Shown here: positions 1,692 through 6,758 of the stretch, piece by piece
How the letters are laid out: the number at the start of each line of letters is the position of its first letter
How positions within the stretch are numbered: the stretch's first letter is position 1
Source: Thermodesulfobacteriota bacterium
GTDB taxonomy: Bacteria > Desulfobacterota > Deferrisomatia > Deferrisomatales > JACRMM01
DNA length: 43,792 nt
Assembly: GCA_040756475.1 (NCBI GenBank)
Contig: JBFLZB010000016.1
Location: forward strand, 1 to 43,792
Direction of reading: 5' to 3'
Made by a program: the position numbers and the translations under genes
Notes under the pieces: model-generated
What the model was told of the DNA's origin: nothing
Databases searched by the model: none
What the model saw: the letters and a program-made list of their open reading frames with translations, nothing else

Positions 1692-4292
1692 CTAGGCTCC
1701 GAGCACCTCGCGCACCTTGCGGGCCAGCGCGTCGCGGGTGAAGGGCTTCTGGAGGAAGGCCAGGCCGGGGTCCAGGACCCCGTGGCGGACAATTGCGTCG
1801 TCGGTGTAGCCGGAGACATAGAGCACCCGCAACCCCGGCCGCTCCTTCCGGAGGCGTTCGGCGACGTCGCGGCCGCTCATCCCGGGCAGGATCACGTCGG
1901 TGATGAGCAGGTCCAGACGGTCGAGCCCGCCCGCCAGGAGAAAGGCGTCGTCGGGGGTGCGGGCGTCGTGGACCGTGTAGCCCAGGGCCGCGAGGACCTG
2001 CCGCACCGTGGCCCGCACGGGGTCTTCGTCTTCCACGACGAGCACGGTCCCGGTACCGGAAACCGGTGTCTCCTCCGGCTTCGGGTCCGGGGCTGGGGCC
2101 CCGGCGTCCTCCGCCGCCCGGGGAAGGTAGACCTTGAAGGCGGTGCCCGTACCGGGCTCGCTGTAGACGGCGATGTGGCCGCCGCTCTGCTTGACGATGC
2201 CGTACACGGTGGCGAGCCCGAGACCCGTTCCCCTCCCTTGCTCCTTCGTGGTGAAGAAGGGCTCGAAGAGCCGGGCGACGACCTCCGGGGGCATGCCCTG
2301 GCCCGTGTCGCTTACCGCGAGCATCACGTAGGGACCGGGGGCAAGTTCGGGGTGGAGCCGGGCGTAGGCTTCGTCCAAGTCGGCGTTGGCCGTGGAGATC
2401 GTGAGCTTGCCACCCCGGGGCATGGCGTCGCGGGCGTTGAGCGCGAGATTGACCAGGATCTGTTCCACCTGCCCGGGGTCGGCCAGGGTCCTTCCCAGGT
2501 CGGGGTTCAAGAGCGCCTCTACCGCGATGTCCTCCCCGATGAGCCGGCGGATCATCGTTTGGATGCCGGCCACCACGGCGTTGAGGTCCAGGACCCGGGG
2601 CTGGAGCACCTGCCGGCGGCTGAAGGCCAGGAGCTGGCGGGTGAGGCTCGCGGCGCGCAAGGCGGCCTGGACCATCTCCCCGAGGTCGGCGCGGGCGGGA
2701 TTCTCCGGCGCCAGCCGCGCCAGCGCGAGCTCCCCCCGCCCCAGGACGACCTGGAGCAGGTTATTGAAGTCGTGGGCGATTCCTCCGGCGAGAAGGCCCA
2801 CCGCCTCCAGGCGCTGGGCCTGGGCGAGCTGCTCCTGGCTGCGGTTCAGCTCTTCCTGGGTGCGCTTGCGCTCGGTGACGTCGATCGCCAGGATCGCCAG
2901 GCTCACCACCCCCCCCGCCTCGTCCAAAACCGGCTGGAGCACCTGCTCGTAGGTGCGCCCCGAGCGCTCGTCCTCGAAGCGCACCGGGCGCCGGGTGCGC
3001 ACCGCCTCCGCGAAGCGTTCCCGGCGCCGGGCGGCTACCTCCGGGGAGAAGAGACCGTGGACGTCGCGGCCCAGGAGCTCCTCCCGGGGGGCCCCCAAGC
3101 GACGCGCCCCGGTCTCGTTGACGGCGAGGATGCGCCCTTGGGCGCTCACCAGGAGCAGGGTCTCGGGGTTTCCGTCCAGGAGGGCCCGCAGGGTCGCCTC
3201 GCGCTCCCGGCGCTCCCGCTCCCGGCGTTCCACGTCCTCGGCCATCCGGTCAAAGGCCCGAGCCACCTCCCCGAGCTCCCCCGGGGCGCCGGCGAGCCGG
3301 GTCCGGGCCGAGAGATCCCCCTCCCCAAGGGCCCTGGCCGCCCGCGCCAGGGCGCGGGCGGGCCGAACGATCAGTGCCCCCCCAAACCCCCAGGCGGCGA
3401 GCACCGCGGCCAGGATCGCCCCTGCGAGCAAGGCCGTATTGACCAGGAGCACCCGGTTGGCGCCGGCGTAGGCCACGGCCGTGGGGATCCCCACCGCGAC
3501 GTGACCCACCTCGTCGCTTCGGTGGCGCAGGGCGGCAATCGCGTAGAGGCGCTCCACGCCGTCGAGGCCCCGGAGCTCCCTTACCCTCTGGGAGGGCCGA
3601 AGGACGGCGCGCCCCAGCTCGGTTTCGGCCGCGGCCCGGCCGACCCACTCCCCTGGCTCGGGGTACCGGGCCAGCACGGTTCCCAGCCGGTCGAAGACGG
3701 CGAGCTGGGAACCCGGCGGCAGCTCGGCTCCCGCCTCGAGCCGTCCCAGCCAGTCCAGGCGCAGACCGGTCACGAGGACGAACTGGAGCCGGCCTGCTTC
3801 GTCGAGAAGGGGATGGGCGAAGGGGAGGACGGCCTCGCCGGTGACCCGACCGATCAGGTACTCCCCCACGGCCGGTTGGAGGGTATGGACGGCCTGGCGA
3901 AAGTGGTGCCGGTCTCCGAGGTTTACCGGGGAGCCCACTCCTCCGGGGGCGCAGACGATCTCCCCGTCGGGCCGGCCCACCAGGAGGGCGGCGAGCTGGG
4001 GGAGCTCGGAGACGAGGGAGGCGGAAAAGCGCTGGCACTCCTCGGACTCCGGCCGGAAGACGGCCGGGACCCGAGAGGCGGCGGCGAGCACCTGGCGGGT
4101 AGCCTCCACCAGGGTCTGGTGCTGGTCGCGCGCGATGCGCGCCAGGCGCAAGGCCTCGCCGTGGGCCGCCTCCCGGGCGAGGCGGCGCAGGGTGAGCCCG
4201 TTCCAGCCGATCAGCCCCACGGCCGGGGCGAGGGCCAGAAGGACCAGGAGGGCGACGCGGGTGCGCAGGCTAGCCAGCAGGGCGAGGACCAT
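1692..4292 (-). CDS. Membrane hybrid histidine kinase (sensor-HAMP-PAS-HisKA-HATPase-receiver)
   Basis: An 866-residue hybrid sensor kinase. Residues 10-30 are a first membrane segment; 35-275 form an extracytoplasmic Cache-like sensor (GDRHHFRQA near 126-134 resembles dCache proteins); about 280-305 is a second membrane segment; 305-360 is HAMP; 365-475 is a PAS domain ending in the usual DVTERK; H507 in GGIAHDFNNLL is the phosphorylated histidine; N615/N619, DTGQG at 662-666 and GRGTGLGL at 686-693 are the ATPase boxes; 750-865 is a receiver with D799 and K849. The ATG at 4292 is chosen because GGGAG precedes it and the membrane segment follows at once; the upstream open frame overlaps the neighbouring PAS/zinc gene. 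It is last in a minus-strand run and may take input from the soluble sensors encoded upstream. Confidence 0.93.
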   Translation of the reverse strand: MVLALLASLRTRVALLVLLALAPAVGLIGWNGLTLRRLAREAAHGEALRLARIARDQHQTLVEATRQVLAAASRVPAVFRPESEECQRFSASLVSELPQLAALLVGRPDGEIVCAPGGVGSPVNLGDRHHFRQAVHTLQPAVGEYLIGRVTGEAVLPFAHPLLDEAGRLQFVLVTGLRLDWLGRLEAGAELPPGSQLAVFDRLGTVLARYPEPGEWVGRAAAETELGRAVLRPSQRVRELRGLDGVERLYAIAALRHRSDEVGHVAVGIPTAVAYAGANRVLLVNTALLAGAILAAVLAAWGFGGALIVRPARALARAARALGEGDLSARTRLAGAPGELGEVARAFDRMAEDVERRERERREREATLRALLDGNPETLLLVSAQGRILAVNETGARRLGAPREELLGRDVHGLFSPEVAARRRERFAEAVRTRRPVRFEDERSGRTYEQVLQPVLDEAGGVVSLAILAIDVTERKRTQEELNRSQEQLAQAQRLEAVGLLAGGIAHDFNNLLQVVLGRGELALARLAPENPARADLGEMVQAALRAASLTRQLLAFSRRQVLQPRVLDLNAVVAGIQTMIRRLIGEDIAVEALLNPDLGRTLADPGQVEQILVNLALNARDAMPRGGKLTISTANADLDEAYARLHPELAPGPYVMLAVSDTGQGMPPEVVARLFEPFFTTKEQGRGTGLGLATVYGIVKQSGGHIAVYSEPGTGTAFKVYLPRAAEDAGAPAPDPKPEETPVSGTGTVLVVEDEDPVRATVRQVLAALGYTVHDARTPDDAFLLAGGLDRLDLLITDVILPGMSGRDVAERLRKERPGLRVLYVSGYTDDAIVRHGVLDPGLAFLQKPFTRDALARKVREVLGA

Positions 4293-4393: not shown

Positions 4394-5023
4394 TCAGGGC
4401 TCCGGCTCTCTTCGAAGTTCGGGGTAGAGCTCGCGGGCGCAGTCGCCGCAAATGCCGTGGGTGAACTGGGCGCTGCTGTGGGCCTGGATGTACTGCTCCA
4501 GGTGCTGCCAGCAGCCCCGGTCGTCGCGGATCTTCTTGCAGTGGGCGCAGATGGGCAGGAGCCCCGTGAGGGTCTTGAGTTCGGACCGCGCTTCCTCCAG
4601 TTCCCGGACCTTTCTGTGGAGCTCCCGGTTGAGGTTGACCCGTTCGTCCTCGAGGGACGACATGCGGGCCAGCACGTCGCTGTGGGTCAGCATGAGACGA
4701 GTGGCGAGGATCGCGACGCCGGTTTCCGTGCCCGCGGCCCACCCCACCAAGGTGTGCAAGCAGCCGCTGCGCGGTGATAGCGTCAGGCGCAGGAGCCGAA
4801 ATTCCCCGGGGCGCGGCCAAGTGGGCCGGGGAGCCTCTGCCTCGTCCAGGAGAAACTCCGCCAGGGGACGGCCCAGGGGCTCCTCGCCAAGCTCCGCGAG
4901 CCGCAGGAAACCTCGGTTGCAAGCGGTAATCCGGCCCGCCCTGTCCACGGCGAGCGCGACGGCGTCCTCGGTGCGTGCGAGGAGGTCCAGGAAGGGGGCG
5001 GAGGCCGGATCACCCGGGGTCAC
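4394..5023 (-). CDS. PAS-like/coiled-coil protein with C-terminal CX2C...CX2C zinc motif
   Basis: A 209-residue soluble protein. Residues about 8-110 look like a divergent PAS domain (DAVALAVDRAGRITACNRGFLRL), 112-155 form a charged coiled coil, and the C-terminus carries C159-x2-C162 and C192-x2-C195 in the pattern LPICAHCKKIRDD...HGICGDCA. This module recurs at the C-terminus of many PAS and receiver proteins and probably binds zinc; its output is not well defined. The GTG at 5023 overlaps the stop of the upstream B12-binding gene (GTGA) and has GGAG five bases upstream, so the two are probably translationally coupled. The hybrid kinase gene starts 101 bases downstream. Likely an adaptor between the cobalamin sensor and the kinase (inference). 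Confidence 0.85.
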   Translation of the reverse strand: MTPGDPASAPFLDLLARTEDAVALAVDRAGRITACNRGFLRLAELGEEPLGRPLAEFLLDEAEAPRPTWPRPGEFRLLRLTLSPRSGCLHTLVGWAAGTETGVAILATRLMLTHSDVLARMSSLEDERVNLNRELHRKVRELEEARSELKTLTGLLPICAHCKKIRDDRGCWQHLEQYIQAHSSAQFTHGICGDCARELYPELRREPEP

Positions 5024-6147
5024 GGCCGCTCCACGGAGGGAAACCAGGCCCGCACCACGTCGGCGGCCGCGCCCGCGTCGGGGGCGTAGGCATCGGCCCC
5101 CAACCGCTGCCAGAGGGCGGTGGACCAGGCAAACGCGAGCCCGCCCACCAGGATCTTGGTGGCGCGCAGCACAGGGTCGCCGCGGACCGCCGTCACCAGG
5201 TCTGCGGCCGCCTCGAGGTTGTAGGGGACGCACACGGAGAGGCAAAGCACCCGGGGCAGCCACGACTCCAGGAGCGCGAGCACGTCGCCGGCCGGCGTGT
5301 CGGCCCCCAGGTAGCGCACGTCCCACCCCTCGAGCTCCAGAAGGTCCGCCACCATGCGCGCGCCGACCTCGTGGTGCTCGTTGGGGGCGCAGGTGACCAC
5401 GGCCCGCAGCCGCCGGGCCCGGGCCGGAGGAGTGAGCCGGCCATACAGCGCCGTCATCATCCGCCCCGCCACGGCGGTGGCCAGGTGCTCCTCGGCGACC
5501 GAGATCTCCCCGGCCTCCCACCGCCGCCCCACCTCGTAGAGGGCCGGCTGGAGGAGCTTCTGGTACACATTCCGAAGGTCGTGCTGGGTACGGCACGCGG
5601 CTTCCGCGAGGGCGACGCAGTCGCGCGTCCGGCCGTCGAGGAGGCAGTCCACCAAGCGGCCCACCTCGGGCTCCCGGGGGGGGCGGAGGGGAAGCGGACC
5701 CGCGGCAACCGACTCGGCGGCCTCGACCGTGGCGGGGTGGGCGCGGAGCATCCACCGGTAGGCGGGGAGGAGTGCGGCCCCGTGGTCGGGCGGAAGCCGG
5801 GCCTCCAGGGCCATCGCCCAGGCCCGGAGCTCCACGGGGAAATAGTCGTAGGAGAAGCCGTGGGCGCGGTACGCCCGGTACACCCAGGGGAGGATGCGCG
5901 CCAGGAGCTCGAAATCCCCCAAGCGCAGCACGGTGCTGAGGAACCGGTGGTGGTTGCGGTGATTGGCGCGCATGACCTCCAGGGGGTTGCCGCCCAGGAG
6001 GTCCCCCAGGTCGCGGCGGGCGGCCAGGGCATCGTCCACGGCTCGGACGAGGACGTCTCCCGCCCCCCGGTAGCCTGCGGCGGCTTCCGGGGAGACGGGA
6101 GGCAGGGCCAGGGCTTCGGCGACGAGAGCTTCCGAGGCGTTCGACAT
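5020..6147 (-). CDS. Cobalamin-binding sensor with CarH-like Wx9EH motif, no DNA-binding domain
   Basis: A 375-residue soluble protein in three parts. Residues 1-160 are a mostly helical region not assigned to a family. Residues 160-240 form the four-helix cap of B12-binding proteins, with W210, nine residues, then E220-H221: the Wx9EH signature of adenosylcobalamin photoreceptors of the CarH type. Residues 247-370 are the Rossmann B12-binding domain with E257-x-H259-x-x-G262, H259 being the expected lower cobalt ligand. CarH has a MerR helix-turn-helix in front; this protein does not, as in AerR/PpaA-type B12 regulators. Its stop overlaps the start of the PAS/zinc gene and a receiver gene lies 12 bases upstream, so a signalling role fits better than an enzymatic one. 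Light sensing is inferred from the motif only. Confidence 0.88.
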   Translation of the reverse strand: MSNASEALVAEALALPPVSPEAAAGYRGAGDVLVRAVDDALAARRDLGDLLGGNPLEVMRANHRNHHRFLSTVLRLGDFELLARILPWVYRAYRAHGFSYDYFPVELRAWAMALEARLPPDHGAALLPAYRWMLRAHPATVEAAESVAAGPLPLRPPREPEVGRLVDCLLDGRTRDCVALAEAACRTQHDLRNVYQKLLQPALYEVGRRWEAGEISVAEEHLATAVAGRMMTALYGRLTPPARARRLRAVVTCAPNEHHEVGARMVADLLELEGWDVRYLGADTPAGDVLALLESWLPRVLCLSVCVPYNLEAAADLVTAVRGDPVLRATKILVGGLAFAWSTALWQRLGADAYAPDAGAAADVVRAWFPSVERP

Positions 6148-6159
6148 GGGCTCGGCTCC

Positions 6160-6576
6160 TCAGGGGCGGGGGCCCAGGACAGCATCGAGGGCGACGGCTA
6201 GCTCCTTGAGGCTCATGGGCTTGGTGAGGATCCGATCGAAGCGGTGGCTCCCGCAGGCCAGGGGGTCCGTGCCCTGGGCGTACCCGCTCATGCCGACCAC
6301 CGGGAGGGCGGGCTCCAGCTCCTTGAGGGCCTGGCACAGCTCCCGGCCGCCCATCTCGGGCATGGCGAGGTCCGTCATCACGAGCGCGACACGCCCTGGC
6401 TCCTTTCTGTACAGAGCCAACGCGTCGGCCCCGGTTCGGGCGGCCAGGGTGGCGAACCCCAGGCGTTCGAGGAGCGCCTGGATGATGGCCATGACCGACG
6501 CATCGTCCTCGGCCACGCGCACGGACCGCCCCCGTCCCTGTTGGTCTGGAAGGCCATTGGCCTCTTCCGGCACCAC
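6160..6576 (-). CDS. Response regulator receiver, probably the tail of a broken hybrid protein
   Basis: A 138-residue frame with an intact receiver from about residue 18: E23-D24-D25 (AEDD), phosphoacceptor D69 in TDLAMPEMGG, switch serine in MSGYA, and lysine in LTKPM. The receiver resembles the C-terminal receivers of hybrid kinases. The first codons (GTG-GTG) lie inside a reading frame that encodes half of another receiver in a different phase, and no good ribosome-binding site precedes them. Expression may therefore depend on re-initiation, frameshifting or an upstream start. It lies 12 bases before the B12-sensor gene and probably shares its transcript. Confidence 0.7.
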   Translation of the reverse strand: MVPEEANGLPDQQGRGRSVRVAEDDASVMAIIQALLERLGFATLAARTGADALALYRKEPGRVALVMTDLAMPEMGGRELCQALKELEPALPVVGMSGYAQGTDPLACGSHRFDRILTKPMSLKELAVALDAVLGPRP

Positions 6577-6758
6577 CGCAGGTGGTAGTCGGTGACCACG
6601 AGTCTCAGCCCGCCCTCGGCGAGGGCGCGGTCGAGCTCGTCCTGGTCCCGGGCCTCCCGGAACTCGCAGTGCGGAAGCTCCTTCTGGAGCGCGCGAACCA
6701 CGAGGCGGCGATCATCGGGGTTGTCGTCCACCAAGAGGATGCGCAAGTCACCTGGCAT
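6577..6758 (-). pseudogene. N-terminal half of a receiver domain, frame lost
   Basis: From the ATG at 6758 the frame reads MPGDLRILLVDDNPDDRRLV and continues as a normal receiver to the phosphoacceptor in VVTDYHLRW. It then loses the fold: the remaining frame to 6378 is a shadow of the downstream receiver, and receiver coding resumes in another phase at about 6576. The simplest reading is an ancestral receiver-(PAS/kinase)-receiver protein that lost its middle by deletion, joining two ends out of frame. The upstream ribosome-binding site is weak (AGGG). Sequencing error at the junction would not restore the missing central residues. Confidence 0.65.

Follow-up and report, generated by a model that had tools for sequence, protein, structure and literature searches.

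What does a cobalamin-binding protein that carries no DNA-binding domain sense, and on which protein does it act? The question is raised by two overlapping genes in a stretch of 43,792 nucleotides from a Thermodesulfobacteriota bacterium (contig JBFLZB010000016.1), which as a whole is called the window here. An earlier note on this DNA proposed a CarH-type cobalamin sensor that feeds a phosphorelay in a neighbouring hybrid kinase through a zinc adaptor. The features that bear on the question are as follows.

1692-4292, minus strand: hybrid histidine kinase (Cache-like sensor, HAMP, PAS, HisKA, HATPase, REC), a neighbour about 100 bp downstream of the partner gene
4394-5023, minus strand: partner gene, 209 amino acids (PAS-like domain, putative coupling helix, Cys-rich tail), overlapping the sensor gene as GTGA
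4394-4561, minus strand: C-terminal Cys tail of the partner (C159/C162, C192/C195), candidate output module
4586-4654, minus strand: putative coupling helix, partner residues 124-146 (LEDERVNLNRELHRKVRELEEAR), common to nearly all partner proteins
5020-6147, minus strand: sensor gene, 375 amino acids, with a photoglobin-like domain and a cobalamin-binding domain
5074-5406, minus strand: Rossmann B12-binding domain (residues 248-358; E257-x-H259-x2-G262, G281-x3-P285; Pfam E 2e-16)
5446-5658, minus strand: four-helix B12 cap (B12-binding_2, residues 164-234; G207-x2-W210, E220-H221; Pfam E 2e-17)
5740-6105, minus strand: photoglobin-like (non-heme globin) domain by hhalign (residues 15-136; N62, H63, H66 and W88 conserved)

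The cobalamin domain of the sensor

The cofactor motifs reported previously, W210-x9-E220-H221 and E257-x-H259-x2-G262, are present in the 375-residue protein and are near-universal in an alignment of 29 homologues: W210, E220, H259 and G262 occur in all 29, and H221 and E257 in 28 each. Because it is kept across these homologues, the W210-x9-E220-H221 motif is not a chance match. The published signature of light-responsive cobalamin proteins is GxxW / EH / GxxH / GxxxP (PMC11796333); the sensor has GxxW, EH and GxxxP, and departs from GxxH with NxxH (N256, with N in 25/29 homologues). The upper-ligand position of CarH, H132, is occupied by Glu211 (Glu in 27 of the 29), and the bis-His light state of CarH is therefore not expected in the sensor. 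The cobalamin adenosyltransferase family CobA/CobO was found in 13 of 13 host genomes. We infer that adenosylcobalamin sits between the Rossmann domain and the cap that carries the Trp and Glu-His residues.

As the earlier note had it, neither a MerR-type nor any other DNA-binding domain was found in the sensor, whose N-terminus has no Pfam match. Photocobilins are the nearest solved sequences in a comparison with PDB sequences, and CarH ranks behind them. An AlphaFold2 model made with 29 sequences reached pLDDT 92.6 and pTM 0.89, against a pLDDT of 51 for a single-sequence prediction. Residues 157-371 align with the photocobilins 8j2y/8j2w at a VIA-align Z of about 25 and 2.1-2.4 A; the Foldseek and VIA-align match lists are dominated by the B12 domain, and the fold likeness covers that domain.

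A B12 domain of this kind might also mark a methyltransferase corrinoid protein with no sensing role. It matches the NCBIfam models MtgC (56 bits) and MtbC (47 bits), and its fold is similar to that of methylamine corrinoid proteins (Z 23), but it matches the CarH model better (73 bits), and the sensor's 17-56 bits against the corrinoid methyltransferase families MtgC, MtbC and MtaC lie below all the NCBIfam cut-offs of 310-450. A photoglobin-like domain fused to the B12 domain, signalling proteins as the conserved partner genes, and the failure to recognise a methyltransferase gene adjoining the cassette also argue against this reading, to which we give hardly any credence.

A photoglobin-like N-terminal domain

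Profile searches of PDB sequences and Pfam gave no significant match for the N-terminal domain, and the window sensor alone matched a photoglobin HMM only weakly (E 0.07). An hhalign comparison with only seven photoglobin sequences was suggestive (P 0.005), and the addition of Desulfobacterota photoglobins settled the matter. Against a profile built from Actinobacteria, Azospirillaceae and Desulfobacterota domains, the N-terminal 150 residues of the sensor gave a probability of 91%, a P of about 1e-6 and a score of 44, whereas the top score among 200 column-shuffled controls was 23. By profile comparison, then, the N-terminal domain is photoglobin-like and homologous over its full length, which makes the sensor a divergent photocobilin and not a CarH minus its DNA-binding part. 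The earlier description as a CarH-type sensor without a DNA-binding domain thus holds for the adenosylcobalamin-type site; it missed the photoglobin-like N-terminus, and the protein as a whole is photocobilin-like.

Does the domain bind a bilin? Asp270 of SasPcob is its biliverdin-binding residue (PMC10979010). It aligns with Asn62 of the sensor, which is Asn in 28/29 homologues, and SasPcob Trp296 aligns with Trp88, invariant in the 29; both equivalences were set by alignment, not structure. AbPcob likewise is without the biliverdin Asp, and it is a weak biliverdin binder. Heme oxygenase (PF01126) was found in 0/13 host genomes of the sensor clade and in 2/7 hosts of typical photoglobins, a weak contrast, though one member of the clade, L073, has a heme oxygenase gene beside the cassette. 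HutW, an anaerobic heme-opening enzyme that would be an alternative source of bilin, was sought and gave no match above the cut-off.

Several related loci are worth recording. At L073 (9794-11077; Nitrospiraceae), the heme oxygenase gene comes after the Cys-tail partner and has an extra C-terminal half that is weakly photoglobin-like. A divergent sister group (L142, L144-L148) retains the layout of a photoglobin-like plus a B12 domain, and the lower axial His is gone from several of its members; at L031 and L017, a member of the sister-group type adjoins an ABC-transporter-like permease. In the Desulfobacterota loci L153 and L154, the neighbours of typical photocobilins include a gene for heme oxygenase and one for a kinase that carries the same helix as the partners described below.

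A conserved partner gene with interchangeable outputs

The sensor and partner reading frames (5020-6147 and 4394-5023, minus strand) share the GTGA overlap already described. The 209-residue product does have the two CX2C pairs noted before, C159/C162 and C192/C195, and its PAS-like character, which is weak in Pfam (PAS_8, E 0.0015, under the cut-off), is backed by relatives. Scanning 84,980 named genomes with the sensor N-terminal domain yielded 43 sensor loci, spread over many phyla and mostly in uncultured anaerobes. The 3' end of the sensor gene is complete in 35 of them, and in 32 of these 35 a PAS partner gene lies directly after the sensor, usually overlapping it. The outputs of these 32 partners are GGDEF (18), a Cys tail (7), and a histidine or hybrid kinase (5), with two cut off by a contig end. 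The three exceptions have a SpoIIE/PP2C phosphatase gene in the partner's place (L092), a different kinase (L105), or none (L093). The GGDEF version occurs in cultured Ilyobacter polytropus DSM 2926, on plasmid pILYOP01 (the pair is WP_013388897.1 and WP_013388898.1), and the kinase version in Pelovirga terrestris. At least 12 output changes took place on the sensor tree, whose backbone is poorly resolved, and outputs are mixed within its starred clades. Since the partner gene holds differing outputs across relatives, sensor and partner together look like a natural plug-in cassette.

Some loci have the parts split. L067 and L030 have three separate genes, of which the B12 gene comes first, the PAS-Cys tail gene second and the photoglobin-like gene third; in L141 the three run photoglobin-like, PAS-GGDEF, B12. 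In L068 a photoglobin-like gene adjoins a receiver-Cys tail protein. Whether fused or split, the parts of the cassette occur side by side, and this is good reason to think that they function together.

The core common to the partners is a PAS domain followed by a 23-residue helix (LNNELANLTRELHRKNRELEKAN-like), which probably couples the sensor to the partner's output. Nearly all partners score 44-103 against the helix consensus, the PP2C protein 22, and the window hybrid kinase 21. Genes adjoining Desulfobacterota photocobilins score 64-91, some of them without a PAS domain, and the remaining long ORFs of those loci score at most 43; because the consensus was derived from the partners, only the scores of the photocobilin neighbours are independent. 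Two of the Desulfobacterota photocobilins with helix-bearing partners adjoin a heme oxygenase gene.

The Cys-rich tail

The tail spans partner residues 155-209 and contains both C-X2-C pairs. Neither Pfam nor NCBIfam has a match for it, and the PDB sequences gave no significant one, but it is common: the pattern C-x2-C...C-x2-C, with LLPICxxCKxIRDDxGxW, has seven copies in the source genome and is present in 21/39 relatives. It recurs on many sensor and receiver proteins (L164-L168, L170 and L171 among them), under no family name. In the examples inspected, the tail is C-terminal and a coiled coil precedes it; the proteins that bear it are receiver, PAS, GAF or membrane sensor proteins. The 209-residue protein had been taken for an adaptor; its tail, however, stands where other partners have catalytic outputs (GGDEF, kinase or phosphatase), and it therefore looks like an output instead. 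We suggest that the tail has a signalling role; that it binds zinc would be a guess.

The neighbouring hybrid kinase

The hybrid kinase does adjoin the pair, at 1692-4292 on the minus strand about 100 bp downstream, and sensor and Cys-tail protein could act specifically on it. The genes share a strand, no convincing terminator was found in the gap, and at L073 the order is sensor, Cys-tail partner, heme-oxygenase gene and similar kinase. That locus is the only one of seven other Cys-tail loci with a kinase of the same type nearby (about 35% identity), and its kinase is no closer to the window's than copies elsewhere in what is a widespread kinase family. The other six loci have no adjoining kinase of the window type or, in L100, another type. 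Of the three genes whose joint conservation the earlier note proposed to check, the sensor-partner pair is thus conserved (32 of 35 relatives), whereas the kinase is not (1/7). Since the kinase is neither generally conserved nor equipped with the coupling helix (score 21), its coupling to the sensor, and with it the suggested phosphorelay, is unsupported, and we regard a kinase-specific function as improbable.

Just upstream of the sensor, a receiver-domain gene (6160-6758, minus strand) is disrupted: only half a receiver is encoded at 6579-6758, and it leads, in another frame, into a second receiver at 6160-6579 that is complete. This suggests a deletion, a frameshift or an assembly error.

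Proposed mechanism and stimulus

We believe that the two-gene cassette works as a photocobilin-like sensor with a dedicated partner and with light as its main cue, and we put the probability of this reading at roughly 60%. The sensor would hold adenosylcobalamin at the site inferred above. When the adenosyl group is lost, with light as the most likely cause, the sensor would shift in conformation or oligomeric state, and the change would reach the PAS-plus-helix core of the partner through protein-protein contact. That core would then set the activity of whichever output is attached to it, mostly a diguanylate cyclase, elsewhere a kinase, and here the Cys-rich tail. There is a published precedent: photocobilin domains with bound adenosylcobalamin act on a diguanylate cyclase that is a separate protein and alter its activity according to the light (PMC10979010). 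The simplest model would have the sensor treat its partner likewise. Physical contact between sensor and partner is presumed, as is light as the stimulus, which is plausible because the adenosyl-contacting residues match those of proven photoreceptors.

Many hosts are anaerobes, and some have record names that hint at dark sites (mine borehole, groundwater, digesters), which argues against light as a universal cue. The same cassette could instead respond chemically, to adenosylcobalamin supply or to cobalt redox state or oxygen exposure, and this would fit the mostly anaerobic hosts, several from dark sites, the absence of PF01126 from 13/13 genomes, the change of the biliverdin-site Asp to Asn and the missing upper His. 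Yet the adenosyl-contacting W-x9-EH set is shared with photoreceptors whose function is proven (PMC11796333), and adenosylcobalamin held in a protein is inherently photolabile. We consider a chemical cue rather unlikely, although a good deal less so than the corrinoid or kinase-specific readings.

We would tentatively go further and propose that a widespread, mostly anaerobic photoglobin-B12 clade lost biliverdin and that its dedicated PAS-helix partner was repeatedly given new outputs, among them an undescribed Cys-tail output domain; we hold this at somewhat less than even odds. If the cassette works as proposed, one B12 sensor core serves many bacterial phyla, including anaerobes of apparently dark habitats, and a short conserved helix wires it to a kinase, a phosphatase, a Cys tail or cyclic-di-GMP signalling. 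The cassette would then be a ready modular part for optogenetics, the question of whether adenosylcobalamin in anaerobes senses light or something else would become testable, and a common, uncharacterised Cys-rich signalling tail would be exposed.

Comparison with known systems

The photoglobins of Schneider et al. 2022 are reportedly non-heme globins that occur together with B12 domains and with signalling modules, and in this they resemble the sensor. Among cobalamin regulators, AerR uses hydroxocobalamin, and CrtJ/PpsR is a PAS protein. AerR resembles the sensor as a stand-alone cobalamin protein that acts on a separate regulator (PMC6199135, PMC9144470); CrtJ, however, is a transcription factor, and AerR has no globin-like domain. 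CarH/LitR (5C8D; PMC10442372) shares the Wx9EH and ExHxxG cofactor residues, including the lower axial His, but the sensor has no MerR DNA-binding domain, and it has Glu211 for His132 and NxxH for GxxH. In CarH, His132 is the upper ligand required for monomer formation (PMC10442372); its equivalent is likewise missing from photocobilins and CtMerR.

Photoglobin-B12 proteins linked to signalling modules were already known (PMC10979010, PMC10151467), while the papers surveyed, in which the key photoglobin description figures through citations, mention neither the Asn62 clade nor the Cys-tail output, nor a dedicated PAS-helix partner whose outputs were exchanged repeatedly. The photocobilins (SasPcob 8J2W, AbDPcob 8J2Y; PMC10979010) are alike in joining a globin-like photoglobin domain and a CarH-like cobalamin domain in one protein, in having no DNA-binding domain and in their ability to regulate a diguanylate cyclase in trans. 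Of their defining traits, the sensor has the CarH-like cobalamin domain (W-x-EH and E/DxH motifs) and, judged on the sequence profile only, the fused photoglobin domain. In contrast, its globin domain is N-terminal and has Asn62 for the biliverdin Asp270, the 13 host genomes searched have no PF01126 heme oxygenase, and the clade has a dedicated PAS-helix partner, encoded by a separate gene, with interchangeable outputs.
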